The notes under the pieces were generated by a model that made no database searches, was not told where the DNA came from, and saw only the letters and a list, made by a program, of their open reading frames with translations. From the IMG/VR virus record IMGVR_UViG_3300031673_000538, positions 1-22,096 of that record: DNA of 22,096 nucleotides; one strand, given 5' to 3'. Positions within the stretch are counted from its first letter, which is position 1; every line of letters begins with the position of its first letter. Both the position numbers and the translations under genes were made by a program. Shown one piece after another: positions 1 through 17,964 of the stretch. Source of the DNA: a virus.

Positions 1-324
1 TCTTATAGAGTGACGGGAAGTCATTATAAATATCAAACAGCCCTTGTAAAAGGAAATTGTTTAGAGTTTAGAATTCCAAGCAAATTTGAGAGCGTTAAAC
101 AAATGATGAGACGATACGAGTTGTTTTATGAGTTGGTTAATTTTTCAATCAACAATCAGAACACTAGCTTTAAAGCATTCTTGAAACACATCAAGCCAAT
201 TATATTGTCAATGTATAGTGGAGACGTGGCAAAGGTTGATTTGGTGATGAATTTATCGGTACATTTTCAGAAATTCATTGATACGGGAGTGATTCACGAA
301 AGCATAGCAGAGTTCTTAGGGTGA
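1..324 (+). CDS. hypothetical protein, 5' end outside the window
   Basis: The reading frame is open from base 1 and ends with TGA at 322-324. A GTG at 10 could be a start, but no stop precedes it in frame, so the gene probably begins outside the window. The visible part (about 107 residues) is rich in Phe, Lys and Ile and looks like a small, mainly helical soluble protein. I recognise no motif or membrane segment. The stop codon lies inside a hairpin (CTTAGG at 315-320 with CCTAAG at 327-332), and a type III hammerhead ribozyme follows 16 bases later. Its mRNA would therefore be cut shortly after the stop. Confidence 0.6.
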   Translation, partial: SYRVTGSHYKYQTALVKGNCLEFRIPSKFESVKQMMRRYELFYELVNFSINNQNTSFKAFLKHIKPIILSMYSGDVAKVDLVMNLSVHFQKFIDTGVIHESIAEFLG

Positions 325-340
325 AACCTAAGGGCTTTGC

Positions 341-389
341 CCGTCCACGAGTGAGTGCTCGTGCTGATGAGCCAAAAATGGCGAAACGG
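341..389 (+). ncRNA. hammerhead ribozyme, type III (HHR1)
   Basis: All core elements of a hammerhead self-cleaving RNA are present. Stem III is CCGT (341-344) with ACGG (386-389). The cleavage nucleotide is C345. Stem I is CACGAG (346-351) with CTCGTG (358-363), closing the loop TGAGTG. The core CTGATGA is at 364-370, stem II is GCC (371-373) with GGC (380-382) around AAAAAT, and GAAA is at 383-386. Stem III is the open one, hence type III. The predicted cut after C345 separates the upstream gene from the gene starting at 412. Stem III is only 4 bp, as is common in type III hammerheads. A hairpin (GGGC at 333-336 with GCCC at 339-342) can form just upstream but competes with stem III for two bases. 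Confidence 0.9.
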
Positions 390-411
390 AAACCAATTTA
401 AAACATTCAAT

Positions 412-603
412 ATGAAGGCAGAAATTTCATTAAAAGAGTTCTTTATAGCCTTAGTGCTATTAAGCATAGCAAGAGCAACCGCAAGTGGCAAATTACAGCA
501 GTACATTCCATTCAATTCAGTAGAGGGAGAAATGGCTTTGGCAGTTCTTAGTGTGACATTTGGTGTGTTGTTACTACTAACATCAATCAAAATCAAGCGA
601 TGA
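412..603 (+). CDS. small two-segment membrane protein
   Basis: This 63-residue protein has two hydrophobic stretches, at about residues 8-22 (FFIALVLLSIARAT) and 42-58 (ALAVLSVTFGVLLLLTS), joined by a short polar loop, and ends in a basic IKIKR tail. It is most likely a small inner-membrane protein. Holin-like size and topology would fit, but nothing proves it and no endolysin gene is nearby. I prefer the ATG at 412 to an in-frame ATG at 355 because the longer version would read through ribozyme HHR1. The leader between ribozyme and start is A/T-rich with no Shine-Dalgarno motif, as is usual in Bacteroidota. The gene is flanked by HHR1 and HHR2. Confidence 0.7.
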   Translation: MKAEISLKEFFIALVLLSIARATASGKLQQYIPFNSVEGEMALAVLSVTFGVLLLLTSIKIKR

Positions 604-624
604 TAGTGCGGTAACGCAAAGGTC

Positions 625-643
625 GAGGAGGGCAAACCTCCTC
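625..643 (+). other. stable hairpin directly upstream of HHR2
   Basis: GAGGAGG (625-631) pairs perfectly with CCTCCTC (637-643) around the loop GCAAA. It abuts ribozyme HHR2, whose stem III begins at 644. There is no T-tract, so it is not a normal Rho-independent terminator. After ribozyme cleavage at 648 it would lie 5 nt from the new 3' end of the upstream mRNA, where it could block 3' exonucleases. That role is inferred. Confidence 0.65.
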
Positions 644-692
644 CCGTCTCGAAGTGAGTGCTTCGGCTGATGAGACCAAAAGGTCGAAACGG
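644..692 (+). ncRNA. hammerhead ribozyme, type III (HHR2)
   Basis: Second type III hammerhead, with the same architecture as the one at 341. Stem III is CCGT (644-647) with ACGG (689-692). Cleavage is predicted after C648. Stem I is TCGAAG (649-654) with CTTCGG (661-666), including one T-G wobble. The loop TGAGTG (655-660) is identical to that of HHR1. CTGATGA is at 667-673, stem II is GACC with GGTC (674-677, 682-685) around AAAA, and GAAA is at 686-689. Stem sequences differ from HHR1 while pairing is kept, which is covariation between two copies in one genome and strong support for a functional RNA. The next gene starts at 713. Confidence 0.92.
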
Positions 693-712
693 AAACTTTA
701 ATTTAATTTAAT

Positions 713-955
713 ATGGCAACAAAAGTATTAGTAATCATTACAGATGACAAGGTTTATTCAACCTATGTGGAGACAATTTGCTTCGTGCAGAATTACAGCA
801 ACGAGGCAGAAAAAGACGAGGCAGTTTTACAGGCGAAGGCAACAGCATTTAGTTATGCTTGTAGTTTCGGATTCGTTTACGTTGACACAATCACGTTAAG
901 AGGAAACCTAACAGACCAAGACATTTTTAATTATTTAAGCAATCACAAAATTTAA
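713..955 (+). CDS. hypothetical small protein
   Basis: An 80-residue soluble protein starting MATKVLVIITDDKVYSTYVET. It begins with a hydrophobic strand (VLVIIT) followed by alternating helices and strands, suggesting a small alpha/beta fold. I see no catalytic motif and do not recognise a family. It starts 20 bases after HHR2, so after ribozyme cleavage its mRNA would begin with the folded ribozyme body. It is followed after 4 bases by the next small gene, implying one transcript. Confidence 0.7.
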   Translation: MATKVLVIITDDKVYSTYVETICFVQNYSNEAEKDEAVLQAKATAFSYACSFGFVYVDTITLRGNLTDQDIFNYLSNHKI

Positions 956-959
956 TCAA

Positions 960-1127
960 ATGGAAACAGGAGACAAATTTATTCACAAGTACAATTCAAG
1001 TATTGAAATTGAATTGATTGAGCCAACTAGAAGAGGTTGGAAAGTATATCAAATTGAAAAGGGTAAAAAGAAAATTGCTTTTTTCGATAGCCAAGATATT
1101 CAAGGCAACAAATCAATCTTTAACTAA
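960..1127 (+). CDS. hypothetical 55-residue protein
   Basis: Starts METGDKFIHKYNSSIEIELI and ends GNKSIFN. The spacing to the genes on both sides (4 and 11 bases) and the A-rich leader make it a better gene candidate than the frame that overlaps it at 1018-1248. The pattern METGDKF..., then strand-rich segments and a Gly-Trp, resembles the short beta-rich modifier proteins common in phage early regions, but I cannot name a family. Confidence 0.6.
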   Translation: METGDKFIHKYNSSIEIELIEPTRRGWKVYQIEKGKKKIAFFDSQDIQGNKSIFN

Positions 1128-1138
1128 AACAAAACAAG

Positions 1139-1315
1139 ATGACAAAATCAAATTTAGTGTCCTTAAAGACACAAGCAGAAATCGAGAGGTTTCACAACTT
1201 ACTAATACGTTGTGGAAACATTTATTTAGCAGACATAAACAGAGTTGATTTGGCTTACAACAAAATAAAAGACCATGTTGAAAACCAATACAGCAAAGGG
1301 TTTATTAAATTTTAA
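1139..1315 (+). CDS. hypothetical 58-residue helical protein
   Basis: Begins MTKSNLVSLKTQAEIERFHN and ends YSKGFIKF. The composition predicts mainly helix with no membrane segment. The first codons include one copy of the recurring palindrome (1157-1172, GTGTCCTTAAAGACAC), encoding V-S-L-K-T. It follows the previous gene by 11 bases with an AAAACAAG leader. No recognised domain. Confidence 0.6.
   Translation: MTKSNLVSLKTQAEIERFHNLLIRCGNIYLADINRVDLAYNKIKDHVENQYSKGFIKF
1157..1172. repeat. GTGTCTT-N2-AAGACAC palindrome, copy 1 (diverged)
   Basis: GTGTCCTTAAAGACAC is the least perfect member of five copies of a 16-bp palindrome spread over the window. It lies inside a coding sequence. Confidence 0.5.
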
Positions 1316-1335
1316 CAAAATTTTAACACTAATTA

Positions 1336-1367
1336 TTTTAACAAGTCTAATTCTCGTCTTATTTTTG
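1336..1367 (+). promoter_or_regulatory. possible Bacteroidota promoter
   Basis: TATTTTTG at 1360-1367 matches the Bacteroidota -7 element TAnnTTTG. The -33 position (1336-1339, TTTT) is only a weak match to TTTG, with a 20-bp spacer. It lies in an 89-base gap between the genes ending at 1315 and starting at 1405, where a new transcript start would make sense. Confidence 0.45.
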
Positions 1368-1404
1368 TCGAAAATTAGTTCATTAACCTTTAAAATCAAA
1401 AATT

Positions 1405-1584
1405 ATGACAACAGAATTTACAGAAGTACAGGCTAAAGCCTACCTACAGCAGAGAGGTAAAACATCAGGGCGTTTTTACGTTAATGTATTCGGGTGGAGT
1501 TCATACTTGACCCTTGAGCCTACATTTGCGACACCAACCGGTAAAGTAAAAGGATTTCCAAAAACCAAAATAGTAAAATTATGA
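1405..1584 (+). CDS. hypothetical 59-residue protein
   Basis: Starts MTTEFTEVQAKAYLQQRGKT and ends FPKTKIVKL. It overlaps the next gene by the ATGA pattern at 1581-1584, a sign of translational coupling. The middle (GRFYVNVFGWSSYLTLEPTF) is aromatic and strand-rich. No family recognised. It is the first gene after the possible promoter at 1336-1367. Confidence 0.65.
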   Translation: MTTEFTEVQAKAYLQQRGKTSGRFYVNVFGWSSYLTLEPTFATPTGKVKGFPKTKIVKL

Positions 1585-2114
1585 GATTAATCACACAAAA
1601 AATCGTAACAGCTTTCGAGCAAAGGAGAGCCTTAAAAATTGACAACAGCGAGACAAACGGGACAAGCCTATGGCTATTCAACAATAAAATCGCAGAACAC
1701 AGAGAGGGTGGAATATGGATTACTAATGCAGGGTGGAGTAGTAAAACCACTAAGGAGAGACTTAACGGACTTACGGGCGTAAACATCACGCAGAAAAGAG
1801 GCGAGTGGTTTTTAAACGGGCATCGTTGGGACGGAGAATGGATTTGCTTGAATGACTTGACCTTGCTTGAGGAACAGTCAAACGAGCCTGAGTTTGACGT
1901 AACAAGCGAGTGGAATGGAGTGTACAGTGAGCCAAGGTATTCAGTATTTCATACGAACGATGAGACACAACTTGAGGTGGTGGAAAATATGTTAAATTCA
2001 GCAGACATAAGAACACGCAGAATGTATTCAGACACACAAGGAATGTACAAGCCAAACCATTTTATCGTGGTGTCTGTGGCAGACTTTGACGGAGCAAAAA
2101 ATTTAATTCAATAA
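1581..2114 (+). CDS. phage hypothetical protein, two-part
   Basis: A 177-residue protein. The N-terminal half (about 1-90) contains the run TTKERLNGLTGVNITQKRGEW and WFLNGHRWDGEW, which resembles a short, function-unknown segment I associate with phage proteins that carry 'RLN.L.GV.I.QK...W.LNG..WDG'. The C-terminal part (about 118-177) is strand/helix alternating and could be a separate small domain. No catalytic residues stand out. The ATG overlaps the stop of the preceding gene. Confidence 0.75.
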   Translation: MRLITQKIVTAFEQRRALKIDNSETNGTSLWLFNNKIAEHREGGIWITNAGWSSKTTKERLNGLTGVNITQKRGEWFLNGHRWDGEWICLNDLTLLEEQSNEPEFDVTSEWNGVYSEPRYSVFHTNDETQLEVVENMLNSADIRTRRMYSDTQGMYKPNHFIVVSVADFDGAKNLIQ

Positions 2115-2117
2115 TCA

Positions 2118-2133
2118 GTGTCTTTGAAGACAC
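2118..2133. repeat. GTGTCTTTGAAGACAC palindrome, copy 2
   Basis: Perfect 16-bp copy in the intergenic gap between the stop at 2114 and the start at 2149. The arms GTGTCTT and AAGACAC are perfectly complementary. Its position just upstream of a start codon would suit an operator or an mRNA hairpin. Confidence 0.6.
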
Positions 2134-2148
2134 ACAAAATTTAAAAAC

Positions 2149-2508
2149 ATGGGAAGATATTATAGTGGAGACATTAATGGTAAATTTTGGTTTGCATTGC
2201 AACCGAGTGATGCACCAAGCAGATTTGGTGGCGAAGTATTCGAGCCACAATACATTGAATACTATTTCGATGAAGAACATTTAGACGTTGTAAATGAAGA
2301 GATTAAAAACATTAAAGACTCTTTAGGCGACAAGGTAAAAGTACTCGAAGACTTTTTTAAGGAAGGTGCATCTTATAACGATGAAACACTAAAAGATTTA
2401 GGCGTAACCAACGAAGAACTGAGAGACTATGCTGACCTAGGTTTAGGCATACGGATACGAGATTTTTTAATCGAGAATGGGGAATGTTCATTCCAAGCAG
2501 AGATATAA
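2149..2508 (+). CDS. hypothetical acidic phage protein
   Basis: A 119-residue acidic protein starting MGRYYSGDINGKFWFALQPS. The N-terminal 50 residues are aromatic (YY, FWF, YIEYYF); the rest is helical and charged (EEIKNIKDSLGDKVKVLEDF). Such proteins are frequent in phage accessory regions, but I cannot assign a function. The leader AATTTAAAAAC before the ATG is nearly the same as that of the next gene, suggesting a common translation-initiation context. Confidence 0.75.
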   Translation: MGRYYSGDINGKFWFALQPSDAPSRFGGEVFEPQYIEYYFDEEHLDVVNEEIKNIKDSLGDKVKVLEDFFKEGASYNDETLKDLGVTNEELRDYADLGLGIRIRDFLIENGECSFQAEI

Positions 2509-2536
2509 ACATATAAGACATATAAATTTTAAAAAC

Positions 2537-2752
2537 ATGGGAGCAACAAAAAAAACATTTGAGATGACAAATTATTTAGCATGTGCTATTGCAGAGGGAT
2601 TCTGTGAGGGAGAGGGAGCAACAAGAGACGAGCAGATTCAGGCGTGGCAGTATTTACACGACACAGGACTTGCGTACAGCCTACAGGGTTGGTACGGGAG
2701 AACAGCCAAGCAGTTGATTGAAGAGGGAATTATTAACGATAAAAAACAATAA
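2537..2752 (+). CDS. small conserved phage protein (YLxDTGxxxSLQGWYGRTA type)
   Basis: The 71-residue product contains AWQYLHDTGLAYSLQGWYGR followed by TAKQLIEEGII, a pattern I associate with a small family of function-unknown phage proteins. I chose the ATG at 2537, after an A-rich leader (AATTTTAAAAAC), over an upstream in-frame ATG at 2477 that would overlap the previous gene by 32 bases. No catalytic motif is visible. Ribozyme HHR3 lies downstream. Confidence 0.75.
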   Translation: MGATKKTFEMTNYLACAIAEGFCEGEGATRDEQIQAWQYLHDTGLAYSLQGWYGRTAKQLIEEGIINDKKQ

Positions 2753-2754
2753 CT

Positions 2755-2820
2755 ATGAGAGCAATACTAAGATTTTTGCAAGAGTTAGCGAAGGCTTGTC
2801 CGAGAGAGACAAAGTGGTAG
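2755..2820 (+). CDS. possible 21-residue leader peptide upstream of HHR3
   Basis: A short ORF (MRAILRFLQELAKACPRETKW) starts 2 bases after the preceding stop and terminates exactly at the first base of ribozyme stem I (G2820). Its start context AACTATGAGAG is the same as that of a short ORF before HHR4 at 3226. It may be fortuitous. If translated, a terminating ribosome would sit over the ribozyme's 5' strand and could delay folding. Confidence 0.25.
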   Translation: MRAILRFLQELAKACPRETKW

Positions 2821-2881
2821 GCAAACTGATGAGACTTCAATAGTCGAAACCCGATTCAGTTCGGGTCTTTGTCAAACATTT
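2812..2881 (+). ncRNA. hammerhead ribozyme, type I (HHR3)
   Basis: Stem I inner helix: GGCAAA (2820-2825) with TTTGTC (2868-2873). Core CTGATGA at 2826-2832. Stem II: GACT (2833-2836) with AGTC (2842-2845), loop TCAAT. GAAA at 2846-2849. Stem III is closed: ACCCGA (2849-2854) with TCGGGT (2861-2866), loop TTCAGT. Cleavage is predicted after C2867. Stem I, the open one, can extend outward (AAGTG at 2812-2816 with CATTT at 2877-2881) across a small GTA/AAA internal loop, where natural type I ribozymes make their tertiary contact with loop II. Cleavage would leave a 26-nt A/U-rich 5' leader on the mRNA for the gene at 2894. Confidence 0.92.
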
Positions 2882-2893
2882 AAAATTAAAATT

Positions 2894-3220
2894 ATGATTC
2901 ACAAAATCGCAGAAATGTTCGGAATGGAGAGCAACGGGTATGCTTCTATTCACACAGAAAACTTTAACGAAAATCACGACCTACCTTGCTACATACCTGA
3001 GAACGCAGAAGATAAATACGACATCTTTAGCAGAAACGACATCAAGAGAGACGTTATTGAATGGCTCGATAGAGAAGACACCAAGGAATACTTGAAAGAA
3101 GTTTGGGACGGATTTATGCCCGAGATAAATGATGAGTTGATAAATAGTTGGGTCGAAATGGTTTACGATAACATATCGTGGGAGTTTCCAAGTACTTATT
3201 TAGAAAAATTTTTAATGTAA
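2894..3220 (+). CDS. hypothetical protein downstream of HHR3
   Basis: A 108-residue acidic protein (MIHKIAEMFGMESNGYASIH...) with many Asp/Glu and Trp residues and no hydrophobic segment. The sequence suggests a compact helical fold. The family is not recognised. It lies between two type I hammerhead ribozymes, so a fully processed mRNA would be a monocistronic RNA of about 430 nt running from 2868 to 3299. Confidence 0.75.
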   Translation: MIHKIAEMFGMESNGYASIHTENFNENHDLPCYIPENAEDKYDIFSRNDIKRDVIEWLDREDTKEYLKEVWDGFMPEINDELINSWVEMVYDNISWEFPSTYLEKFLM

Positions 3221-3225
3221 AAACT

Positions 3226-3315
3226 ATGAGAGATAAAGTGGTAGGCAAACTGATGAGAATTAAATATTCGAAACCTAAGCAAGTGAACTCGCTTAGGTAT
3301 TTGTCAAACAATTAA
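3226..3315 (+). CDS. possible short ORF reading through HHR4
   Basis: A 29-codon ORF (MRDKVVGKLM..., ending YLSNN) starts 5 bases after the previous stop with the same AACTATGAGAG context as the short ORF at 2755 and covers the whole core of ribozyme HHR4. It may be chance, because the ribozyme core fixes much of its sequence. If translated, ribosomes would unfold the ribozyme and inhibit cleavage. Confidence 0.2.
   Translation: MRDKVVGKLMRIKYSKPKQVNSLRYLSNN
3244..3305 (+). ncRNA. hammerhead ribozyme, type I (HHR4)
   Basis: Same layout as HHR3. Stem I GGCAAA (3244-3249) with TTTGTC (3300-3305) is identical. CTGATGA is at 3250-3256. Stem II is GAAT (3257-3260) with ATTC (3266-3269) around TAAAT, and GAAA is at 3270-3273. 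Stem III is ACCTAAGC (3273-3280) with GCTTAGGT (3291-3298). The cleavage-site base is A3299, which is allowed (any base but G) though less usual than C. Stems II and III differ completely from HHR3 yet pair perfectly. The upstream AAAGTGGTA and downstream AAACA are shared with HHR3. Cleavage would leave a 28-nt leader before the ATG at 3328. Confidence 0.9.
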
Positions 3316-3327
3316 AATTAAAACAAG

Positions 3328-3453
3328 ATGAACACAACACAAGAACAACAAACAAAAAAAAATGTACTAATCGACATGTTAGAGGATTATAACAATATAA
3401 AAAACGATTGGTATATTGAAAAAATAGTAAAGGAATTAAGAGAAACAATTTAA
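3328..3453 (+). CDS. hypothetical 41-residue protein
   Basis: Short, charged, mostly helical protein: MNTTQEQQTKKNVLIDMLED, then a Tyr/Asn/Lys-rich segment ending KELRETI. It starts 23 bases after the HHR4 core and ends 10 bases before the next ATG. No family recognised. Its placement between regular gene starts and its A-rich leader support it being real. Confidence 0.55.
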   Translation: MNTTQEQQTKKNVLIDMLEDYNNIKNDWYIEKIVKELRETI

Positions 3454-3463
3454 AATTAAAACT

Positions 3464-3625
3464 ATGAATAAAATTTATTGTGACATTTGCGACCAAGCAA
3501 GTGTAGAAACGTTAGAAGTACCAACAGAAGAAACTTTTTATTGTTGCTCAATGTGTACGGATAATAACAAAGACAGAGAAATTAAAGATAATAATTTCAA
3601 TTTTGTAATTGACTATAAAAACTAA
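3464..3625 (+). CDS. small Cys-rich, likely zinc-binding protein
   Basis: A 53-residue product with CDIC near residues 6-9 and CCSMC at about 27-31, giving four or five cysteines in the arrangement of a small zinc ribbon (MNKIYCDICDQ..., FYCCSMCTD). It probably binds one zinc ion and could contact nucleic acid or a host protein. The target cannot be inferred. Leader TTAAAATTAAAACT precedes the ATG, like those of neighbouring genes. Confidence 0.65.
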   Translation: MNKIYCDICDQASVETLEVPTEETFYCCSMCTDNNKDREIKDNNFNFVIDYKN

Positions 3626-3630
3626 AAATT

Positions 3631-3852
3631 ATGGAAGAGATTTATTATTTTGAGGGAATACCTCAAGACTTATTTGAGCATCCGGAAAAGTTGCCGAAAG
3701 AAATTCAAAACATTATAGAAAAGTACATTGACGCAGACTTATTCACTTGCGATGACACTAAAGCGTTATTAAAAGAGTTACAGATAAACGGATATACTTT
3801 TGATTACGGATTGGATTGTCAACCATTTAATCTTAGACCCTATGGAAGATAA
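3631..3852 (+). CDS. hypothetical 73-residue protein
   Basis: MEEIYYFEGIPQDLFEHPEK, ending QPFNLRPYGR. Acidic, helical, with no membrane segment or known motif. It follows the preceding stop by 5 bases and overlaps the next gene's ATG (3842), so the group at 3464-4003 is probably translated from one message. Confidence 0.65.
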   Translation: MEEIYYFEGIPQDLFEHPEKLPKEIQNIIEKYIDADLFTCDDTKALLKELQINGYTFDYGLDCQPFNLRPYGR

Positions 3853-4003
3853 TCGTACCTTCAGAATTACATACGGAAATAAATTTGTATGCAACATGTT
3901 AGCCCGAACATCATACGAGGCTATTGACAGAACATACAACAAATACATTGTAGAGTTTCCGCATTTGTCAAGAAAAAAAATTAATGCAAAAAAACTAAGA
4001 TAA
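3842..4003 (+). CDS. hypothetical 53-residue basic protein
   Basis: I take the ATG at 3842 (MEDNRTFRITYGNKFVCNML) rather than an upstream in-frame ATG at 3800, because 3842 gives the short overlap typical of this window. The product ends in a lysine-rich tail (RKKINAKKLR). No family recognised. It is the last gene before the strong promoter at 4005-4036. Confidence 0.55.
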   Translation: MEDNRTFRITYGNKFVCNMLARTSYEAIDRTYNKYIVEFPHLSRKKINAKKLR

Positions 4004-4004
4004 A

Positions 4005-4036
4005 TTTGGTAGTGTCTAAATTTTGTCTTACCTTTG
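4005..4036 (+). promoter_or_regulatory. Bacteroidota-type promoter for the gene at 4104
   Basis: TTTG at 4005-4008, a 20-bp spacer and TACCTTTG at 4029-4036 match the Bacteroidota primary sigma consensus TTTG-N19-21-TAnnTTTG in sequence and spacing. Transcription would start at about 4043, giving a leader of about 60 nt that contains a perfect palindrome (4066-4081). Confidence 0.75.
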
Positions 4037-4065
4037 TCTAAATTTAATTAATTAATCAGAGTTCT

Positions 4066-4081
4066 GTGTCTTCAAAGACAC
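4066..4081. repeat. GTGTCTTCAAAGACAC palindrome, copy 3
   Basis: Perfect copy with the CA centre (the reverse complement of the TG-centred copies), 30 bp downstream of the -7 box at 4029-4036 and 22 bp upstream of the ATG at 4104. It is well placed as an operator or 5'UTR hairpin. Confidence 0.65.
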
Positions 4082-4103
4082 TACTCACAAATCAAATCAA
4101 ATT

Positions 4104-5198
4104 ATGTGTATTATTATTGTAAAAAAAGCGGGGCTTAAAGTTCCAACAGATGTATTAAAATCATCAGCAAAAATCAACCCTCACGGATTGGGTATTGTAT
4201 GGCTTGATGACTACAGCGTTAGCTATCACAAATCAGCAGAGTATAAGTTACTCAACACAGACAGACCATTCATTGCTCACTTTAGGTATGCGACCGTTGG
4301 AGCGATAAACAAAGAGAACACGCACCCGTTTGTCTGTGGCTCAAATAAGAATGAATTGCTTATGATGAATGGTACAATCAAGGGGCTTGGAAACTTAAAG
4401 AAAAGCGACAGCAAAGAGTTGGCAGAGATACTTGGAGAATTCCCTCGTCATACTTGGAAAGAAGAGTTGGAGCGTTACGATTGCAGATTCGTAACAATGA
4501 ATACTAGAAACAAATCTTATCAGATGTACAACAGAGAGGATTGGCATAAAAAAGACGGGATTTGGTACAGCAAGGACAACGTTCTTGAGACAAATGTTGT
4601 GGCAGTTTACGGGACTTTAAAGAAAGGTTACAGCAACTATTGGAATTACTTATCGGGAAAGTCTCATCATTTAGGAAAAGGAAAGACCACTGACAAGTAC
4701 CCTCTTGTAGTGAAAGGACTACCTTATTTGATTAACGAGAAAGGCAAGGGGTATAATGTTGAGGTTGATGTGTTTAAGGTTTCAGATTCAGTTTTAAGTG
4801 CATTGGATAGACTTGAGGGTCATCCAATATGGTACAAAAGAGAACAAATAAACGTTACGTTGAAAGGTAAAAAAGTGTTGTGTTGGACTTACTTCAACAT
4901 AAAAGAAACAGCAGACGGAAAAGAGTTTCAAAAAAGCTTTGTTCAAAGACCTTTTAAAAGTTTTACCTCAAGCAGTTTTAGATTAGATACACCTATCTTG
5001 TCCGATAATTATCATACCAATCTTTTTAATTCAAAAATAAATGAAGAGACTATTGAGGATGATGAGTTTAACGTAGAGAATGAGTCTCCAATATGCATAT
5101 CTTGTTACAATGATTTGGAGTTTGATGGTTTCGAACATTATCATTGTGGTCAATGTTGTAATTGGTACACTACAAATGAGATTTTACAATACTATTAA
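4104..5198 (+). CDS. class II glutamine amidotransferase-like / gamma-glutamylcyclotransferase-like fusion
   Basis: A 364-residue protein in three parts. Residues 1-140 resemble an Ntn-type class II glutamine amidotransferase: Cys2 directly after Met (MCIIIVKK) is the nucleophile position, with INPHGLGIVW, FIAHFRYATVG and a MNGTI motif. Residues 163-270 resemble the GGCT/AIG2 fold: VYGTLKKGYSNYW with the substrate loop at about 168-175, then LDRLEGHPIWYKRE, where Glu238 is at the usual catalytic position. The tail has CISCYNDL (about 331-334) and CGQCCNW, a probable zinc ribbon. The pairing suggests cleavage or rearrangement of glutamyl or isopeptide bonds; such domains are known to cluster with amidoligases, but none is visible here. 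The gene has its own promoter. Confidence 0.85.
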   Translation: MCIIIVKKAGLKVPTDVLKSSAKINPHGLGIVWLDDYSVSYHKSAEYKLLNTDRPFIAHFRYATVGAINKENTHPFVCGSNKNELLMMNGTIKGLGNLKKSDSKELAEILGEFPRHTWKEELERYDCRFVTMNTRNKSYQMYNREDWHKKDGIWYSKDNVLETNVVAVYGTLKKGYSNYWNYLSGKSHHLGKGKTTDKYPLVVKGLPYLINEKGKGYNVEVDVFKVSDSVLSALDRLEGHPIWYKREQINVTLKGKKVLCWTYFNIKETADGKEFQKSFVQRPFKSFTSSSFRLDTPILSDNYHTNLFNSKINEETIEDDEFNVENESPICISCYNDLEFDGFEHYHCGQCCNWYTTNEILQYY

Positions 5199-5208
5199 TA
5201 ATAAAGCA

Positions 5209-5436
5209 ATGAGATATAAAAAAGAGATTATAGAAGCCGCAGAGAGCAAGTGCTACTCAAGGATTGTTTCGCTTATCAGAGAGATAAAAGACTTAGGTCA
5301 AGACATCTTAAATAACAATATAGGAGCTATAACAATTGAAGAGCTACACCTATTAAGGCAAGGAGCAGAGAAAGAGTTACTAATATGGGATTTGTTAAAC
5401 GACTCCCTTAAAAAATACAAGGATGAAACTTTATAG
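5209..5436 (+). CDS. hypothetical helical protein
   Basis: The 75-residue product (MRYKKEIIEAAESKCYSRIV...) is almost entirely helical and heptad-like, and may form a small coiled-coil or helical bundle. I use the ATG at 5209; an upstream in-frame start at 5080 lies inside the previous gene. It overlaps the next gene by 14 bases. Function unknown. Confidence 0.65.
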   Translation: MRYKKEIIEAAESKCYSRIVSLIREIKDLGQDILNNNIGAITIEELHLLRQGAEKELLIWDLLNDSLKKYKDETL

Positions 5437-5647
5437 AATAAACACTACAGCATACGAAGAAGAGGATTTCTTCTTGCTTACAGACTTATCAGAGCAAGAC
5501 ATAGCAGAGGTTGTAAACCCTATTGTTATGGCAGAGCGTGACGGGTACGAAGAGTACGAGAACGAAACATTGTTAGATGCTTTACGCAGTAGGTATCCTG
5601 ACAAAAAAATTACGATGATTGTAGAATTTGAACAGCTAACGTATTAG
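5423..5647 (+). CDS. hypothetical acidic protein
   Basis: 74 residues, strongly acidic (YEEEDFF, ERDGYEEYENE), with short strands at both ends (MKLYRINTTAY and KKITMIVEFEQ). Small acidic phage proteins of this kind sometimes mimic DNA, but that is only a possibility here. It overlaps the preceding gene and is the last gene before a 189-base non-coding stretch with strong RNA secondary structure. Confidence 0.65.
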   Translation: MKLYRINTTAYEEEDFFLLTDLSEQDIAEVVNPIVMAERDGYEEYENETLLDALRSRYPDKKITMIVEFEQLTY

Positions 5648-5649
5648 AT

Positions 5650-5809
5650 GAGTAGCATTTGGAAATCCTTGCTTGTCGGCAATGTAGGACGTTGTGATGC
5701 TACAGGTTAAATTAGTTGCTACTCAGCTAAGTATTTTTCGGTAAATATTATACTTAGCAATCATAAAGACTAAAATCACAATAAGACTGACAGCTTGGAA
5801 AGACAAGCA
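5650..5809 (+). ncRNA. candidate structured RNA with alternative folds
   Basis: The gap 5648-5836 has no ORF but contains several perfect complementary pairs: GTAGCAT (5652-5658) with ATGCTAC (5697-5703); GAGTAGC (5650-5656) with GCTACTC (5718-5724); GCTAAGTAT (5726-5734) with ATACTTAGC (5750-5758); TTGTGAT (5692-5698) with ATCACAA (5775-5781); TGCTTGTC (5670-5677) with GACAAGCA (5802-5809); and a local hairpin GCTTG (5793-5797) with CAAGC (5804-5808). Some exclude each other, so the RNA may switch between a local fold and a long-range one. I match it to no known class. It could be a phage small RNA or a long 5' leader of the gene at 5837. Strand is assumed from the neighbours. Confidence 0.5.
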
Positions 5810-5836
5810 TTTTATTAACTTTAAATTTAATTAACA

Positions 5837-6445
5837 ATGAAAAAAGTAAATGACATTAAGGTAAAAGACTTTCAAGTTGTATTCCCTCATAAAAAAAAGT
5901 ATGAAGTACTTTATTGGATTGAAACGGGAGACGATAGAGAGTCTTTTGATGAGCAATTAGAAGCAGATACAATAGAGAAAGCTTTGTCTGAATTTAAAAA
6001 TAAAAATACTTTAGCTAAAATATATAGCATCAGTCTAGTTACTGAAAGTAAATTATTTATTAAAACAGAAATATCAAGAGATTTACTAGAAAATGTGTTT
6101 GTAACAGCTATTGAAGGTGGAAGTAATTATTGGTACTATCTACCAAAAAAATCTATAAGATTAATCAGGGATGCCATATCAAAAGAAGAAGACCCATATT
6201 TAGCAACAGCTATGTTAAAGGCAGTATTAGATAAAAATGTAGCAATTCCAATACACGATGCAGAAGAATATGAACATGAGATAGGTATAATTAGCAAATA
6301 TACAATTCAACATAGATTGAATAAGTTAGCTAAAGATGACGGATTAAAGTGGTGTCTTGATGCTGAATTGAGAGGAGAAGGAGATGCTGAGACTAGTGAT
6401 GTAGTGTTTCAATTTTTAACAATGGGAGAATACATTTATGGCTAA
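5837..6445 (+). CDS. conserved phage hypothetical protein
   Basis: A 202-residue protein. The middle segment ENVFVTAIEGGSNYWYYL followed by DAISKEEDPYLATAMLKAV resembles a family of uncharacterised phage proteins with the signature 'V.TA.EGG.NYW'. The N-terminal 50 residues (YEVLYWIETGDDRESFDEQL) look like a separate small alpha/beta part. No catalytic motif is clear. The start follows an A/T leader (AATTTAATTAACA) after the structured non-coding stretch and overlaps the next gene by 8 bases. Confidence 0.8.
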   Translation: MKKVNDIKVKDFQVVFPHKKKYEVLYWIETGDDRESFDEQLEADTIEKALSEFKNKNTLAKIYSISLVTESKLFIKTEISRDLLENVFVTAIEGGSNYWYYLPKKSIRLIRDAISKEEDPYLATAMLKAVLDKNVAIPIHDAEEYEHEIGIISKYTIQHRLNKLAKDDGLKWCLDAELRGEGDAETSDVVFQFLTMGEYIYG

Positions 6446-6827
6446 GTTTAAAAAAGGAAATAAACCTTGGAACGCAGGACTTAAAGGATTACATTTAAGT
6501 CCTAATACTGAGTTTAAGAAAGGAGTAACCACAATGGAGAATCATCCTAGTTGGAAAGGTGGAGAGCAACACTCTAAGCATGACTGTACTTATATAAACA
6601 TAGGAACAAACAAAAGAATTCGAAGACCTAAAAAAGTTTACGAAGATGCCCACGGAACTATGCCTAAAGGTTGGATTATATATCACTTAGACGGAGACAG
6701 ATACAATGATAGTTTGGATAACTTGATTGCGATACCTCGTGCGGTGCTTGTGCGCATAAACGCAGGACGTATGAACGCAAATTATCACGAGATAAAAAAA
6801 GCAGTAGAACAATTTAAAAACAAATAA
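6438..6827 (+). CDS. HNH endonuclease with NUMOD3-like N-terminus
   Basis: 129 residues. The N-terminus (FKKGNKPWNAGLKG, then FKKG and NHPSWKGG) resembles the NUMOD3 DNA-binding repeats of homing endonucleases. The C-terminal half has the HNH_3-type core IIYHLDGDRYNDSLDNLIAI at about residues 78-97, with His followed by DGD and two Asn in the usual HxDGxxxNxxxxNL spacing. It probably nicks or cuts DNA and may be a free-standing homing endonuclease, common between phage genes. It overlaps its upstream neighbour by 8 bases, and the next ATG is 2 bases after its stop. Confidence 0.85.
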   Translation: MAKFKKGNKPWNAGLKGLHLSPNTEFKKGVTTMENHPSWKGGEQHSKHDCTYINIGTNKRIRRPKKVYEDAHGTMPKGWIIYHLDGDRYNDSLDNLIAIPRAVLVRINAGRMNANYHEIKKAVEQFKNK

Positions 6828-6829
6828 AT

Positions 6830-7144
6830 ATGGCAACAGAAACAGAGAGAGATAATATAGACCCTATTGTAGAACAAGTAAAAGAGAAGTTTACGGAACG
6901 CTCTCAGGTTGGCGTGACAAAGTATGGAACCACATTAGAGAGAGGAGACCTTAGCTTATTGGATTGGCTTAATCACTTGCAGGAGGAGTTAATGGATGCT
7001 ACTTTGTATATCCAAAAACTGAAGAATGACTTAGACCAACATCCAAACGGAGTTATAATAACAAAAGAGTCTTGGGATAAGGCGGACAAGATAACGCATG
7101 AGGGATTTATTTATGTAAAATACACAGACTTAACAAGATTATGA
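6830..7144 (+). CDS. MazG-like nucleotide pyrophosphohydrolase
   Basis: 104 residues. FTERSQVGVTKYGTTLERGD, then LSLLDWLNHLQEELMDATLY, is typical of small phage all-alpha NTP-pyrophosphohydrolases. EELMD (EExxD) would supply metal-binding acids in the first helix pair. Only one such helix pair is visible, so the enzyme would be a short, oligomeric MazG relative that hydrolyses (d)NTPs and could alter nucleotide pools or the host alarmone response. It overlaps the next short gene by ATGA. Confidence 0.7.
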   Translation: MATETERDNIDPIVEQVKEKFTERSQVGVTKYGTTLERGDLSLLDWLNHLQEELMDATLYIQKLKNDLDQHPNGVIITKESWDKADKITHEGFIYVKYTDLTRL

Positions 7145-7227
7145 AACGGAAATTAATTAATTTTTTTTATTGGACACTTATAATAATAGCGTTAATTTTA
7201 TCAATACTAATAAATATAAACTTATGA
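7141..7227 (+). CDS. 28-residue single-span membrane peptide
   Basis: MKRKLINFFYWTLIIIALIL plus SILININL: a basic start followed by one hydrophobic helix, i.e. a tiny membrane peptide. It overlaps the previous stop (ATGA at 7141) and the next start (7224), so it sits exactly in the operon's coupling pattern, which argues that it is real. Target unknown. Confidence 0.55.
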   Translation: MKRKLINFFYWTLIIIALILSILININL

Positions 7228-7568
7228 TGACAATCAAACAACACTTAAAGTTAGAGAAATCAAGCTTAAAGCCAAACAAAAATAAAATTGAAGAACTTAC
7301 TAAAATACTAGAAAGAAATACATTAACTATTGAACAATGGAGAATGACAGGTAGATTTATACCTGCCGAGGAGTTTGTTCAAAATAATCCAAACATTAAA
7401 ATAGAAAAAGAATGTAGAGAGATTGTTGAATATGTCGGAAAATCATTTATTCAAGTATTTGGTAAATCAGATTTTGTCTTCAAAGACACTAAAAGAAAAA
7501 CACTAGATGAAGTGGAAGACAAAATGTGGATTGCCGTAGCTGAAAAGTTATGGTGCGAAAAATGTTAA
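7224..7568 (+). CDS. hypothetical protein
   Basis: I choose the ATG at 7224 (MMTIKQHLKLEKSSLKPNKN), overlapping the preceding stop, over an in-frame upstream ATG at 7170 that would bury the small membrane peptide. The 114-residue product is helical and lysine-rich and ends WCEKC. It contains an imperfect copy of the recurring palindrome (7474-7489), encoding V-F-K-D-T. No family recognised. Confidence 0.7.
   Translation: MMTIKQHLKLEKSSLKPNKNKIEELTKILERNTLTIEQWRMTGRFIPAEEFVQNNPNIKIEKECREIVEYVGKSFIQVFGKSDFVFKDTKRKTLDEVEDKMWIAVAEKLWCEKC
7474..7489. repeat. GTGTCTT-N2-AAGACAC palindrome, copy 4 (one mismatch)
   Basis: TTGTCTTCAAAGACAC, inside the gene at 7224-7568. It differs from the CA-centred consensus only at the first base. 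Confidence 0.5.
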
Positions 7569-7610
7569 TAAAATTAATTAAAAAATAGACAATATATAAA
7601 CATTTATTTG

Positions 7611-10157: not shown

Positions 10158-10502
10158 ATGATACCGACACTTAGAACAATTACTAGAAAATCTAAAATGG
10201 GTTTTGGAAAATATAAAGAAAAGACCGTTCAAGAAATGCTAGACCTTAGACGCACTCTTGACTTAATTTCTGCATATTATAAACTGACTTCTATAAATTA
10301 CCAAGAAGATATACTAACTGAATTAAAAATAACTGAACAATACAGGATTGAAAAACCATCTGCAAATAAAGAAATGTATTATAAATTTCTTAATGAAAAT
10401 GGATATAAATTAAGGTCAAGAGGGCAAGGTGCTGACAAACTTAAAAAACAAACCAAAGCCCTTTCCAAAAGACAGTTGCAAGGAATGAACCACGGTCGTT
10501 AA
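10158..10502 (+). CDS. cassette-borne hypothetical protein
   Basis: 114 residues, basic. KSKMGFGKYKEKTVQEMLDL resembles the 'FGKYKGKT' opening of DUF3820-like and related phage proteins, but the rest (LDLISAYYKLTSINYQEDIL, RSRGQGADKLKKQTKALSKR) is not a family I can name. It fills one cassette (10141-10590) on its own: it starts 17 bases after the left crossover point and stops 4 bases before the R''-like box of site 2. It has no promoter of its own that I can see and would be read from the operon. Confidence 0.7.
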   Translation: MIPTLRTITRKSKMGFGKYKEKTVQEMLDLRRTLDLISAYYKLTSINYQEDILTELKITEQYRIEKPSANKEMYYKFLNENGYKLRSRGQGADKLKKQTKALSKRQLQGMNHGR

Positions 10503-11920: not shown

Positions 11921-12247
11921 ATGGCACAAGACCAAGAGAAGATTTTCGCAGACGGATTTATCTTCAAAAGAAACCCAAAAGCACCACAATTTGTAGTGGG
12001 CAGAGTATCAATGAAAGTAGAGGAAGCTATCGCTTTCTTAAAGACCCACGAGAAGAATGGTTGGGTAAATGTGGATATTAAAGAAGCTCGAAGTGGTAAT
12101 CACTACATTGAGTTAGACACGTTCGTTCCAAGCAATGATATTACGGTTGACAATTACAATGCTTCAAAACAGTCTCCAACTAAACCACCGGCAACGGCAG
12201 AAATGCCTCAGATAGCAGGAGATAAAGATGAGGATTTACCATTCTAA
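11921..12247 (+). CDS. SSB-like single-stranded DNA-binding protein
   Basis: 108 residues. The body (ADGFIFKRNPKAPQFVVGRV, then WVNVDIKEARSGNHYIELDT) is strand-rich and fits a small OB-like or phage SSB-type fold, though not a standard SSB family by eye. A low-complexity Pro/Thr/Ala linker (about 84-97) leads to the acidic C-terminus DKDEDLPF. That ending closely resembles the DDDIPF tip of bacterial SSBs, which recruits replication and repair proteins. It lies after the Sak-exonuclease pair and before the primase-helicase, where an SSB is expected. A strong terminator follows. Confidence 0.72.
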   Translation: MAQDQEKIFADGFIFKRNPKAPQFVVGRVSMKVEEAIAFLKTHEKNGWVNVDIKEARSGNHYIELDTFVPSNDITVDNYNASKQSPTKPPATAEMPQIAGDKDEDLPF

Positions 12248-12461: not shown

Positions 12462-14858
12462 ATGGCACATTCAGTAACCATATTTCAAAATATAAGAGAT
12501 ACAGATACCCCTTTTTACAGAGATATTAACGTGATTCTCAATAGAATAAAGGACGGAGCAGGGGCTACCAAGGATATTGTTAAGAAAATTAGATTAGAGA
12601 AAGATAAGTCTGAGCGTAACGAAATAAAGAAGCAGTTGCCTGCAATTTGTTTTAGTGGTAAATTTACAAAAAGAACAGATTCATCACTATCTGAGCATTC
12701 AGGTATCATCTGTTTGGACTTTGATGGGTATCAAAAGCAAAAAGAATTATTACAGGACAAGGAAACATTATCTAAAAATAAATATGTTTATTCTGTATTC
12801 ATTTCTCCATCAGGAAACGGATTAAAAGTATTGGTTAAGATACCTGCTGACCCCGACAACCATACAAACTATTTTAATAGCCTTGAAAAGTATTTTAATT
12901 CCCCTTATTTTGACAAGACAAGTAAAAATATCAGTCGAGTGTGTTACGAGAGCTATGACCCACTTCTTCATATTAACCCAAATTCTTCGATTTGGGACAC
13001 GATTGAAGAGCCGGAGTACGTAGAGGTTAACCGAACAAGAGATAAGGCTACAATTCCAATTACAGACGAAAATAAGATAGTTGAAATACTTGTTAAGTGG
13101 TGGGAGAAAAAATTCCCTATGCAAAGTGGACAAAGAAATCAAAACGCATACGTTCTTGCAATGGCATTTAATGACTTTGGAATAAACAAAAGTTTGGCAG
13201 CATACGTTCTTAATCAATTTGCATCAGACGATTTTAAATTATCAGAGATTGCAACAACAATTGATTCTGCTTATAAAAATACATCAAGCTTTGGAACTAA
13301 GTATTACGAAGATGAAGAGCGTATAAATAGTATTAAAGCTAAATTAAGACGAGGAGCTTCTAAAAAAGATATTAAATACCAACTTCAAGAAAGTGATTTA
13401 GATGATGATATTATTGATTCTGTATTATCTAGGATTGAGGATGAAAATGCAAAGATGACTTTTTGGACTAAGAACGACAAGGGGATTATAAAAATAATTC
13501 ATGTGTTATTCAAGCAGTTTTTAGAAGATAATGGTTTCTATAAATTTTGTCCTGAGGGAGGAAGAAACTATGTGTTTGTAAAAGTTACAAACAATCTAAT
13601 AGACCATACATCAGAAAAGGAAATTAAGGATTTTGTTTTGAATTACTTGATTGATTTAGATGACGTTTCTATTTATAATTATTTTGCAGACAATACTAGA
13701 TTTTTTAAAGAAGAGTTTTTATCGTTGTTATCTACAATTGAAATTTATTTTATAGCAGATACAAAGGATACTTCTTATTTGTATTATAAAAACTGTGCAG
13801 TTCAGATAACAAAAGATTCAATAAAAACGATAGACTATTTGGATTTGGGAGGTTATGTTTGGAAAGACCACGTTATTGATAGGGTTTTTACTATTGGAGA
13901 AGTAACAGATGCTTGTGATTTTAGAAAGTTTGTATCAAACATTAATGGTTCAGATGAGCATAGAGTGAAATCAATGGAAAGTACATTAGGTTTTTTAATG
14001 CATGGATATAAGAACTTATCATTTTGCCCTGCAGTTATTCTAAATGATGAAGTAATTAGTGATAATCCTGAGGGAGGAACAGGAAAAGGATTGCTTATGA
14101 ATGCTCTTAGCAAAATGAAAAAAGTAGTTACCATTGACGGCAAGTCTTTTACATTTGAAAGAAGTTTCGCTTATCAGTTAGTATCTGCAGATACTCAGAT
14201 ATTAGTTTTTGATGATGTTAAAAAGCATTTCGATTTCGAGAGGTTATTTTCTGTAGTAACAGAAGGATTAACTCTTGAGAAGAAAAATAAAGACGCTATC
14301 AAGATACCTTTTTCAAAGTCCCCTAAGATTGCCATAACCACAAATTATGCGATTAAAGGTTCAGGAAATTCATTTGCAAGACGTAAGTGGGAGTTGGAGT
14401 TACATCAGTATTATAGAAAGAATTTTACACCACAAGATGAGTTTGGAAAGCTAATGTTTGGAGATTGGAATGATGATGATTGGATGCAATTTGACAACTA
14501 TATGATTCAATGCTTAAAAAATTACTTGAATACAGGATTAGTAAAAACAAACTTTGTAAATTTAAAAACTAGACACTTATCTCAAGAAACTTCTCACGAG
14601 TTTATCGAGTGGGTAGGATTGGTTGATAACATAGACAGAAGTAGTATTATGCCTTTAAATGTTAGGCTTTATAAAAATGAGCTTTATAATAATTTTGTTG
14701 AAGAGTACCCCGACTATAGTTCGAGAGGAAAGATGTCTATAAGTAGAACTAAGTTTTACAGATGGCTATCTCACTATGTAAATTACAGAGAGGATATTGA
14801 ATCAGACCAAGACAGAGACCATATTGGAAGATGGATAATACTTAAAAAAATACCGTAA
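12462..14858 (+). CDS. primase-helicase: BT4734/VirE-like N-terminus plus SF3-type helicase
   Basis: 798 residues. Residues about 1-190 match the BT4734/VirE N-terminal domain (a primase-type fold): HSGIICLDFDGYQKQKELLQ and SVFISPSGNGLKVLVKIP. A second part (about 195-285) resembles the helical domain that follows in such proteins. The C-terminal helicase has GGTGKG (Walker A, about 538-543), QILVFDDVKKHF (Walker B, about 579-590) and KIAITTNYAIKG (sensor/motif C, about 621-632), then SFARRKWELELHQYY, all typical of phage D5-like/SF3 helicases. It should unwind DNA and may prime replication. Priming is inferred, since I do not see all catalytic acids with certainty. Confidence 0.88.
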   Translation: MAHSVTIFQNIRDTDTPFYRDINVILNRIKDGAGATKDIVKKIRLEKDKSERNEIKKQLPAICFSGKFTKRTDSSLSEHSGIICLDFDGYQKQKELLQDKETLSKNKYVYSVFISPSGNGLKVLVKIPADPDNHTNYFNSLEKYFNSPYFDKTSKNISRVCYESYDPLLHINPNSSIWDTIEEPEYVEVNRTRDKATIPITDENKIVEILVKWWEKKFPMQSGQRNQNAYVLAMAFNDFGINKSLAAYVLNQFASDDFKLSEIATTIDSAYKNTSSFGTKYYEDEERINSIKAKLRRGASKKDIKYQLQESDLDDDIIDSVLSRIEDENAKMTFWTKNDKGIIKIIHVLFKQFLEDNGFYKFCPEGGRNYVFVKVTNNLIDHTSEKEIKDFVLNYLIDLDDVSIYNYFADNTRFFKEEFLSLLSTIEIYFIADTKDTSYLYYKNCAVQITKDSIKTIDYLDLGGYVWKDHVIDRVFTIGEVTDACDFRKFVSNINGSDEHRVKSMESTLGFLMHGYKNLSFCPAVILNDEVISDNPEGGTGKGLLMNALSKMKKVVTIDGKSFTFERSFAYQLVSADTQILVFDDVKKHFDFERLFSVVTEGLTLEKKNKDAIKIPFSKSPKIAITTNYAIKGSGNSFARRKWELELHQYYRKNFTPQDEFGKLMFGDWNDDDWMQFDNYMIQCLKNYLNTGLVKTNFVNLKTRHLSQETSHEFIEWVGLVDNIDRSSIMPLNVRLYKNELYNNFVEEYPDYSSRGKMSISRTKFYRWLSHYVNYREDIESDQDRDHIGRWIILKKIP

Positions 14859-14874
14859 GTAAATTCAAATTATA

Positions 14875-15291
14875 ATGAATAATGAGGATATTATAGAAAG
14901 AGTTCTTGGTTATAATAATTATGAAATGTGGCAGAAATGTGAACTTCTGAGAAAAGTAATAAACATATCTGTAGAAAGAAAAGAGGGTAGAGGTAAAAAT
15001 GTTAGAGTCATAAAAGAACTTAAATATAATACATCTAGTAAAGTTAGAAGAACAATAGAACGAAGTTGTGAATATTATAAAAAATTACACGAAGAAAACA
15101 TGGATAAAAAAAAGCAAGTAGGAAGTTTTGAAATAACTAAATACAGAATTGAGAATGTAAATGGAGAACCTAAGATAGTAATAGATATGGTAAAGGTACT
15201 AGACACAAATGGTCAGTACATTAAGTTTGCTAGTTTAGAAAAAGTAATTGATTACTTAGAAAAATATCCTGTTAAATTTAAGAAATTATGA
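14875..15291 (+). CDS. hypothetical protein between the helicases
   Basis: 138 residues, basic and helical (MNNEDIIERVLGYNNYEMWQ..., then SVERKEGRGKNVRVIKELKY), with an alpha/beta C-terminal half (FEITKYRIENVNGEPKIVID). No motif recognised. It sits 16 bases after the primase-helicase, and its stop overlaps the ATG of the SF2 helicase (15288). A small replication accessory or helicase partner is plausible from context only. Confidence 0.7.
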   Translation: MNNEDIIERVLGYNNYEMWQKCELLRKVINISVERKEGRGKNVRVIKELKYNTSSKVRRTIERSCEYYKKLHEENMDKKKQVGSFEITKYRIENVNGEPKIVIDMVKVLDTNGQYIKFASLEKVIDYLEKYPVKFKKL

Positions 15292-16517: not shown

Positions 16518-16729
16518 CACCAAAAGAAAAAGCAGAATATTTAGTTAGAAATATGGAATTTCAAATTACGTATGTTTACGACCCAACGGAATCTCAGGCA
16601 TATGATAGTGCTAAAAAATGTGCACTAATAGCAGTTGATGAGATAATTAATACATTAGACCATCTACCGATAACATTTGGAGTAAAAGCATATTGGAAAA
16701 AAGTTAAAAAAGAAATAGAAAAATTATGA
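16514..16729 (+). CDS. hypothetical small helical protein
   Basis: 71 residues. The opening MTPKEKAEYLVRNME and the segment AKKCALIAVDEIINTLDHL resemble a small protein common in Bacteroidota phages and prophages ('MTPKEKA..LV...CALIAVDEII'), with unknown function. It overlaps both neighbours by ATGA. Confidence 0.75.
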   Translation: MTPKEKAEYLVRNMEFQITYVYDPTESQAYDSAKKCALIAVDEIINTLDHLPITFGVKAYWKKVKKEIEKL

Positions 16730-17004
16730 AAAACAAGTTAGCAGGGAAGCACCCCTCTTATGACAAGTTAGGTATGTCAGAAGAAAGAAAGAAAAAAAAG
16801 TTAGCATACGATACCAAGTATCAAGCTACTGAGGAACGTAAAAAGTACAGAGCAAAGCTCAACAAAGCCAATCGAGAAGCCGGTACTTATGGTAATGAAG
16901 ATGGCTTAGATATGAGTCACACAAAGTCAGGAAAAGTTACAAAAGAAAAAGCTAAAACTAATAGAGCAAGAAACGGTCAGAACTCTAAAAGTACAAAAAA
17001 ATGA
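16726..17004 (+). CDS. basic protein related to degenerate phage HNH proteins
   Basis: 92 residues, very basic. YQATEERKKYRAKLNKANRE followed by DGLDMSHTKSGKVTKEKAKT and NRARNG resembles small marine-phage proteins of the form 'YH.S..Q...RA.RN.ARR...G...DG.DV.H..GN......NRS', which look like HNH domains. Here only one His of the catalytic pattern remains and the GN element is lost, so it may bind DNA without cutting. The assignment is by pattern memory only. Coupled to both neighbours by ATGA overlaps. Confidence 0.6.
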   Translation: MKNKLAGKHPSYDKLGMSEERKKKKLAYDTKYQATEERKKYRAKLNKANREAGTYGNEDGLDMSHTKSGKVTKEKAKTNRARNGQNSKSTKK

Positions 17005-17945: not shown

Positions 17946-17964
17946 TGTACTAAAAAAATGATTT

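Follow-up and report, generated by a model that had tools for sequence, protein, structure and literature searches.

What are four hammerhead ribozymes (HHRs) doing in front of four small genes of one phage? The window, that is, the whole stretch of 22,096 bases analysed here (IMG/VR virus record IMGVR_UViG_3300031673_000538), carries two type III ribozymes (HHR 1, HHR 2) followed by two type I ribozymes (HHR 3, HHR 4). It is likely that they are gene junctions at which an early transcript of a Bacteroidetes (Flavobacterium-like) phage would be cut. In the sequence, this reading is based on canonical cores, covarying stems, location on a single strand, and a constant arrangement of stop codon, hairpin, cut site, short A-rich leader and ATG. 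From these features we infer the cleavage itself, its timing, and its effect on mRNA stability or translation.

Hammerhead ribozymes in the window

The window was searched with a pairing descriptor that combines the core letters of types I, II and III with stems I, II and III of at least four, three and three pairs, respectively. Exactly four HHRs were found, all on the plus strand (Table 1), and none on the minus strand. In 300 dinucleotide-preserving shuffles of the window the descriptor had 0.027 matches per shuffle, versus the four found. The cores of all four HHRs are complete, with CTGATGA, GAAA and UH at the cleavage site. They have the invariant letters C3 U4 G5 A6 N7 G8 A9 ... G12 A13 A14 A15.1 and U16.1 H17, as well as the pairs 10.1-11.1, 1.1-2.1 and 15.1-16.1, and all three helices show covariation. 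A strict core pattern of fixed length gave no matches, being too rigid. A weak match of a type III model at 17116-17164 on the minus strand lacks a hammerhead core and was rejected.

The Rfam model RF00008 assigns 38.0 bits (E 4e-5) to HHR 1 and 36.8 bits (E 9e-5) to HHR 2, both under its gathering score of 48.5 bits and thus below the curated threshold. The type I pair was not reported by the Rfam scan of the window. Models built from relatives give 72.5 and 69.6 bits for HHR 1 and HHR 2 (model R2), and 69.5 and 60.4 bits for HHR 3 and HHR 4 (model R1).

A preliminary description of this DNA had placed four complete hammerhead cores at the same coordinates and on the same strand, and had divided them into two types with varying stems and retained pairing. 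The descriptor returns exactly these four, and the division into types agrees with both the descriptor and the covariation described below. The ATG codons it had listed at 412, 713, 2894 and 3328 are correct and lie 20-22 nt past each HHR. The 5' ends it had expected at 346, 649, 2868 and 3300 are the predicted cuts after 345, 648, 2867 and 3299. The Rfam scan it had proposed recovered the type III pair, at sub-threshold scores, and failed to recover the type I pair. Its placement of the HHRs in intergenic gaps has to be corrected at the third site, since the stop codon of a 21-codon open reading frame (ORF, 2755-2820) overlaps stem I of HHR 3.

Covariation

The sequences for the covariation counts were chosen by motif letters only, with no pairing required, avoiding circular selection. 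In type I, pair 2 of stem II is paired in 104 of 109 sequences (mean over shuffles 48), and pair 3 of stem III in 134 of 134, with six pair types (mean over shuffles 54). In type III, pairs 1-6 of stem I are paired in 21 of 21 sequences, with up to six pair types. The counts from alignments A1 and A2, the rows of which were descriptor-selected, agree with these. For activity at cellular Mg2+ an HHR requires a tertiary contact between loops I and II. Loop letters are conserved: GUGAGUGC in loop I and the letters of loop II in type III, and UUNA in loop II of type I. The loop of type I stem III is GNRA or UNCG in 81 of 197 cases.

Related ribozymes in other phages

Pattern searches of IMG/VR yielded 9 stretches from the type I copies, 27 from the type III copies, and at least 120 from a broader type I pattern. 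Among the matches listed, there are 254 distinct tight HHRs in 155 loci (197 of type I, 51 of type III and 6 of type II). More than one HHR is present in 70 loci; both strands are used in none of these 70, and types are mixed in 21. An ATG (of an ORF of at least 30 codons) lies at most 40 nt away from 96% of the type I HHRs and 78% of the type III HHRs, versus 21% of random positions.

When 50 whole records were scanned with R1 and R2, about 101 matches to type I and 45 to type III were strong, as counted from the result tables. These records were preselected by a match to a hammerhead pattern, and thus the counts say nothing on the overall frequency of such phages. Records of 60 kb contain one cluster each, of about 5 kb or less and with at most ten copies. 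G047, for example, has ten HHRs at 2808-7574, and G009 has five at 13762-18245. The copies within a single phage are often alike. The clustering, which had been called unusual in the preliminary description, is common in related phages and was reported by Perreault et al. 2011 (PMC3088659).

The cultured relatives belong to the genus Elemovirus, a group of Flavobacterium phages. One type III HHR precedes the first gene of their rightward operon, and one type I HHR follows further on; in L005 the type III copy lies at 10276-10330 and the type I copy at 12067-12124. The host of the window virus is probably a Flavobacterium-like member of Bacteroidetes. No HHR was found in the examined regions of Tenacibaculum phage Gundel_1 and the Manatee Spring virus, and no similar named phage matched the HHR clusters L153 and L114. 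A pattern scan of genome contigs for hosts or prophages matched three contigs of metagenome-assembled genomes (MAGs), two of them labelled Patescibacteria or Wolfebacteria, and none from Bacteroidetes.

Type III HHRs with similar loops occur in the MAG contigs L045 (461-1541, three copies inside 1.1 kb), L046 (2536-2584) and L047 (7462-7512). Pairs of type II HHRs about 20 nt ahead of ATGs were seen in three other phage contigs that match the type III pattern (L022, L025, L036). In two other phages, clusters of type I (L012 6487-7778, L015 2597-3392) are followed by a Shine-Dalgarno-like TAGGAG; therefore the architecture probably reaches hosts beyond Bacteroidetes.

Geometry of the junctions

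The two types are embedded differently. For type I HHRs, the end of the upstream stop codon lies at +1 relative to the ribozyme start (median), with peaks at 0, +1, +6 and +10, so that the upstream gene often terminates on a stop codon that is part of the ribozyme. In most cases 13-18 nt (about 16 nt) separate the ribozyme from the ATG that follows. For type III HHRs, the upstream gene stops about 34 nt short of the ribozyme (median -34), and the gap holds a strong hairpin, with a median of -14.4 kcal/mol versus -4.9 at other gene starts. Among 45 viral cases, 33 have this hairpin ending no more than 6 nt from stem III, versus 9.85 in shuffled segments; it is flush with stem III in 29 of the 33, and there are 32 distinct hairpin sequences. 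Type I HHRs have no excess of adjoining upstream hairpins over shuffled segments.

Both type III ribozymes of the window are preceded by such hairpins (307-340 and 625-643). They are followed by CCGUC and are missing from the list of predicted terminators. As no U run comes after them, they are not intrinsic terminators. Two functions are conceivable for the flush hairpin, alone or together: stacking on the 4-bp stem III of type III, and capping of the 3' end of the upstream RNA.

A 16-base palindrome, GTGTCTTNNAAGACAC, forms the core of the hairpin before type III HHRs in eight loci (L019, L021, L023, L024, L031, L034, L039, L075). With at most one mismatch, it has five copies on the plus strand of the window (1157-1172, 2118-2133, 4066-4081, 7474-7489 and 16240-16255) versus 0.09 expected.

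Exchange of types and neighbouring genes

There are 12 pairs of HHRs of different types, not independent of each other, in which both the upstream and the downstream genes are homologous. At one such shared junction L026 has a type III HHR with the hairpin, and L146 and L032 have type I HHRs; the downstream genes of the three are 77-81% identical in DNA, the alignment starting at the ATG. These comparisons indicate that the conserved trait is the predicted cut at the junction and not the type of the ribozyme.

Where only one neighbour is shared, it is mostly the upstream gene in type III pairs (106 pairs, many of them from one conserved gene, versus 8 with only the downstream gene shared), and less markedly so in type I pairs (62 versus 41, again not independent). 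Unrelated genes follow the 21-codon ORF and HHR 3 or its counterpart in the window, L014, L016 and the Elemovirus group. Thus, of the proposed tie between each ribozyme and the gene after it, the spacing to the ATG is right, while in type III pairs the conserved neighbour is the upstream one.

Proposed mechanism

If the HHRs are processing junctions, each would fold and cut its own UH site as the RNA polymerase passes. The upstream RNA would keep a hairpin near its 3' end together with a 2',3'-cyclic phosphate, and the downstream mRNA would begin with a 5'-OH. For type I, stem III itself would serve as this end hairpin. Type III would instead use the separate hairpin that is stacked flush on its short stem III; here the downstream mRNA would, in addition, open with the hairpin of stem I. 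No protein would be needed for the virus to trim its own mRNA into single-gene pieces. The cut would stand in for a terminator and a promoter, and adjacent small genes would therefore get their own mRNAs with their own stability. Among the mRNAs predicted for the window, 346-648 would measure about 303 nt and 2868-3299 about 432 nt.

Several observations weigh against this reading. The two HHR pairs are 2.1 kb apart, and between 713 and 2755 there are several genes without a ribozyme. A promoter-like motif lies between the pairs (1345-1369), and therefore more than one transcript is likely, the transcripts being different or overlapping. Of the processing series envisaged in the preliminary description, the position at junctions on one strand fits; for these same reasons, a single transcript cut throughout into single-gene mRNAs is not supported. 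In thermodynamic folding, stem III of both type III HHRs of the window has a probability of only 0.25-0.39, and stem I of the type I copies falls to about 0.1-0.4 in longer context. Because of these low values, the efficiency of cleavage in the cell is uncertain. Finally, of 18 consensus HHRs studied earlier, 4 showed no activity in vitro (PMC3088659).

The explanation that the motifs are accidental or decayed and inactive would agree with the sub-threshold Rfam scores and the unreported type I pair. It is hardly tenable against a chance expectation of 0.027 per window and covariation over hundreds of sequences; the shuffles and the covariation rule out a chance origin of the four HHRs. Mobile or selfish copies without a role in the phage, similar to retrozymes or satellite-type elements, are very improbable. 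HHR 3 and HHR 4 do share flanking letters and look like a duplication, and copies within one phage are often mutually similar; but the copies always use one strand, sit nearly always at gene junctions, form one cluster, and may be of different types at one junction, and neither a flanking element nor a dimer arrangement was seen. A different matter is whether cleavage is regulated, so that translation of the upstream ORF, a ligand or a protein sets the folding, and the ribozyme serves gene control rather than constitutive processing. The stop codons ending at 0, +1, +6 or +10 of type I HHRs are in line with such a switch, because a terminating ribosome would cover stem I and a part of the core, as are the retained length and stop of the 21-codon ORF ahead of HHR 3 and the lower pairing of stem I in longer context. 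However, there is no conserved additional aptamer-like domain, the overlap is not general, because the stop codons before type III are about 34 nt upstream, and it may merely reflect compactness of the genome. We consider the switch unlikely.

A serious competitor, which we would put somewhat short of even, is that the HHR chiefly forms the 3' end of the upstream gene, the ribozyme replacing a terminator and the downstream gene being incidental. The excess of shared upstream genes in type III pairs (106 versus 8, from non-independent pairs) points in this direction. So does the gene ending at 324, the homologues of which precede a type III HHR in about 18 other contigs, and so do the constant association of the 21-codon ORF with HHR 3, with four different following genes in four phage groups, and the frequent GNRA or UNCG loops of stem III (81 of 197). 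On the other hand, the bias in type I is weak (62 versus 41), and the narrow spacing to the ATG, 13-18 nt for most type I HHRs, suggests that the downstream leader counts too. We retain processing junctions as the preferred reading. A more general form of it can be offered only tentatively: a modular, protein-free junction, consisting of a stop codon, an end hairpin, the HHR cut, a leader and an ATG, might be used in phages of Bacteroidetes and other hosts, with types I and III interchangeable, selection acting on the hairpin-capped cut, and downstream genes free to be swapped.

Comparison with known systems

In prophages, HHRs of types I, II and III were described in clusters that flank a single gene or a short block of genes, and processing of phage RNA into single-gene mRNAs by clustered HHRs was proposed (PMC3088659). 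The examples in Fig. 3 of that paper include the ardA triple of Agrobacterium tumefaciens, Clostridium scindens and Azorhizobium; cleavage was shown, for some HHRs in other phage clusters, in vitro and in E. coli. The review by De la Pena et al. 2017 (PMC6155905) repeats the link between HHRs and phages and the processing role, and calls the role in bacteria and phages an open question. The window resembles these prophage clusters in having several close HHRs on one strand around small phage genes. The set to which it belongs differs in that the carriers are phage contigs of IMG/VR and a cultured Flavobacterium Elemovirus, with up to ten copies in 5 kb, and in the flush hairpin before type III, the overlap of stop codons with type I, and the exchange of types at a junction; the text consulted of that paper describes none of these.

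The core letters, the three stems and the UH site are those of Rfam Hammerhead_3 (RF00008) and the Rfam type I family. Unlike RF00008, the type III HHRs of the window combine a short stem III with the shared loop I GUGAGUGC; unlike the Rfam type I family, stem I is GGYWAA/UUWRCC, with no internal loop visible. In Pseudomonas Bruynoghevirus (phage U47) a type III HHR likewise stands directly ahead of the first early gene (L165 1088-1136, 55 bits), and its letters resemble one HHR in L039. It is a single early element, and has U-U at the first pair of stem II, a variant also present in the second HHR of L016. The PaP3-type HHR is named in PMC3088659. In the lytic haloviruses HF1 and HF2, the HHphage described there likewise immediately precedes the first early gene, and a 5' end has been mapped close to its cut; it has a variant core, an archaeal host and one copy.

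In the open-access literature searched, which excludes subscription papers, we found no later paper on this arrangement of HHRs, and neither the flush hairpin, the fixed geometry of stop codon and ATG, the exchange of types at a junction, the ten-copy cluster, nor an HHR family of Flavobacterium phages. Thus the kind of element and the idea of processing are already known, and the regular layout and the exchange of types at one junction look new. The large comparative set of HHRs provides a fixed geometry and sharp predictions of mRNA ends. The Elemovirus cultured on Flavobacterium sp. BAL314 carries one type III and one type I HHR and makes the processing idea directly testable. Rfam scans as run here overlook the type I family of Flavobacterium phages.

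Genes and other features around the ribozymes

Table 1. HHRs of the window and the genes, hairpins and motifs near them.
Feature	Position	Strand	Remarks
HHR 1, type III	341-389	+	stems I/II/III 7/4/4 bp; predicted cut 345/346 (GUC|C); found by descriptor
HHR 2, type III	644-692	+	stems I/II/III 7/4/4 bp; predicted cut 648/649; found by descriptor
HHR 3, type I	2820-2873	+	stems I/II/III 6/4/6 bp; predicted cut 2867/2868; found by descriptor
HHR 4, type I	3244-3305	+	stems I/II/III 6/4/8 bp; predicted cut 3299/3300; found by descriptor
Conserved upstream gene, C-terminal part	10-324	+	homologues in about 18 other phage contigs precede a type III HHR
Hairpin, 14-15 bp	307-340	+	0 nt from stem III of HHR 1; overlaps last codons and stop of ORF 10-324
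Hairpin, 7 bp, GAGGAGGGCAAACCTCCTC	625-643	+	flush with stem III of HHR 2
Small hydrophobic protein, 63 amino acids	412-603	+	after HHR 1; homologues past the matching HHR in L014 and L016
Small protein, 80 amino acids	713-955	+	after HHR 2; in L014 and L016 this place is taken by a different, unrelated gene
ORF of 21 amino acids, MRAILRFLQELAKACPRETKW	2755-2820	+	stop TAG, its last base common with stem I of HHR 3
Small protein, 108 amino acids	2894-3220	+	after HHR 3; in L014, L016 and Elemovirus, other genes occupy this place
Putative ORF remnant ATGAGAG...ATAAAGTGGTAGG	3227-3245	+	directly before HHR 4
ORF of 41 amino acids	3328-3453	+	after HHR 4
Promoter-like motif GTCTAANNNTNGTCTTANNTTTGTC, Bacteroidetes TAnnTTTG type	1345-1369	+	between the two HHR pairs
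Promoter-like motif GTCTAANNNTNGTCTTANNTTTGTC, second copy	4014-4038	+	past the HHR cluster

An ATP-grasp or amidoligase identity was suspected for the gene ending at 324; it had no match in Pfam and is not claimed. The 108-amino-acid protein has no relatives among the viral contigs.

Elemovirus and four other contigs, IMG/VR phages among them, retain the 21-codon ORF at unchanged length and with its stop, together with the counterpart of HHR 3. Summed over pairs, its codon differences comprise 54 synonymous and 56 nonsynonymous ones, a weak leaning toward coding. It may possibly encode a microprotein or a leader peptide. The stretch directly before HHR 4 looks like both ends of the same ORF with the middle deleted. 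A frame of 29 open codons, ATGAGAGATAAAGTGGTAGGC... to TAA, crosses HHR 4 (3227-3316) and is probably accidental.

The promoter-like motif GTCTAANNNTNGTCTTANNTTTGTC has two copies in the window versus 0.04 expected and is probably an early promoter of the Bacteroidetes type. A stretch resembling it occurs in L014 near 1250-1280.

Further downstream, window positions 4104-5198 encode a glutamine-amidotransferase-like part fused to a gamma-glutamyl cyclotransferase domain (PF06094, E 7e-22). A gene with the same annotation is present in the Manatee Spring podovirus near GroEL/GroES.

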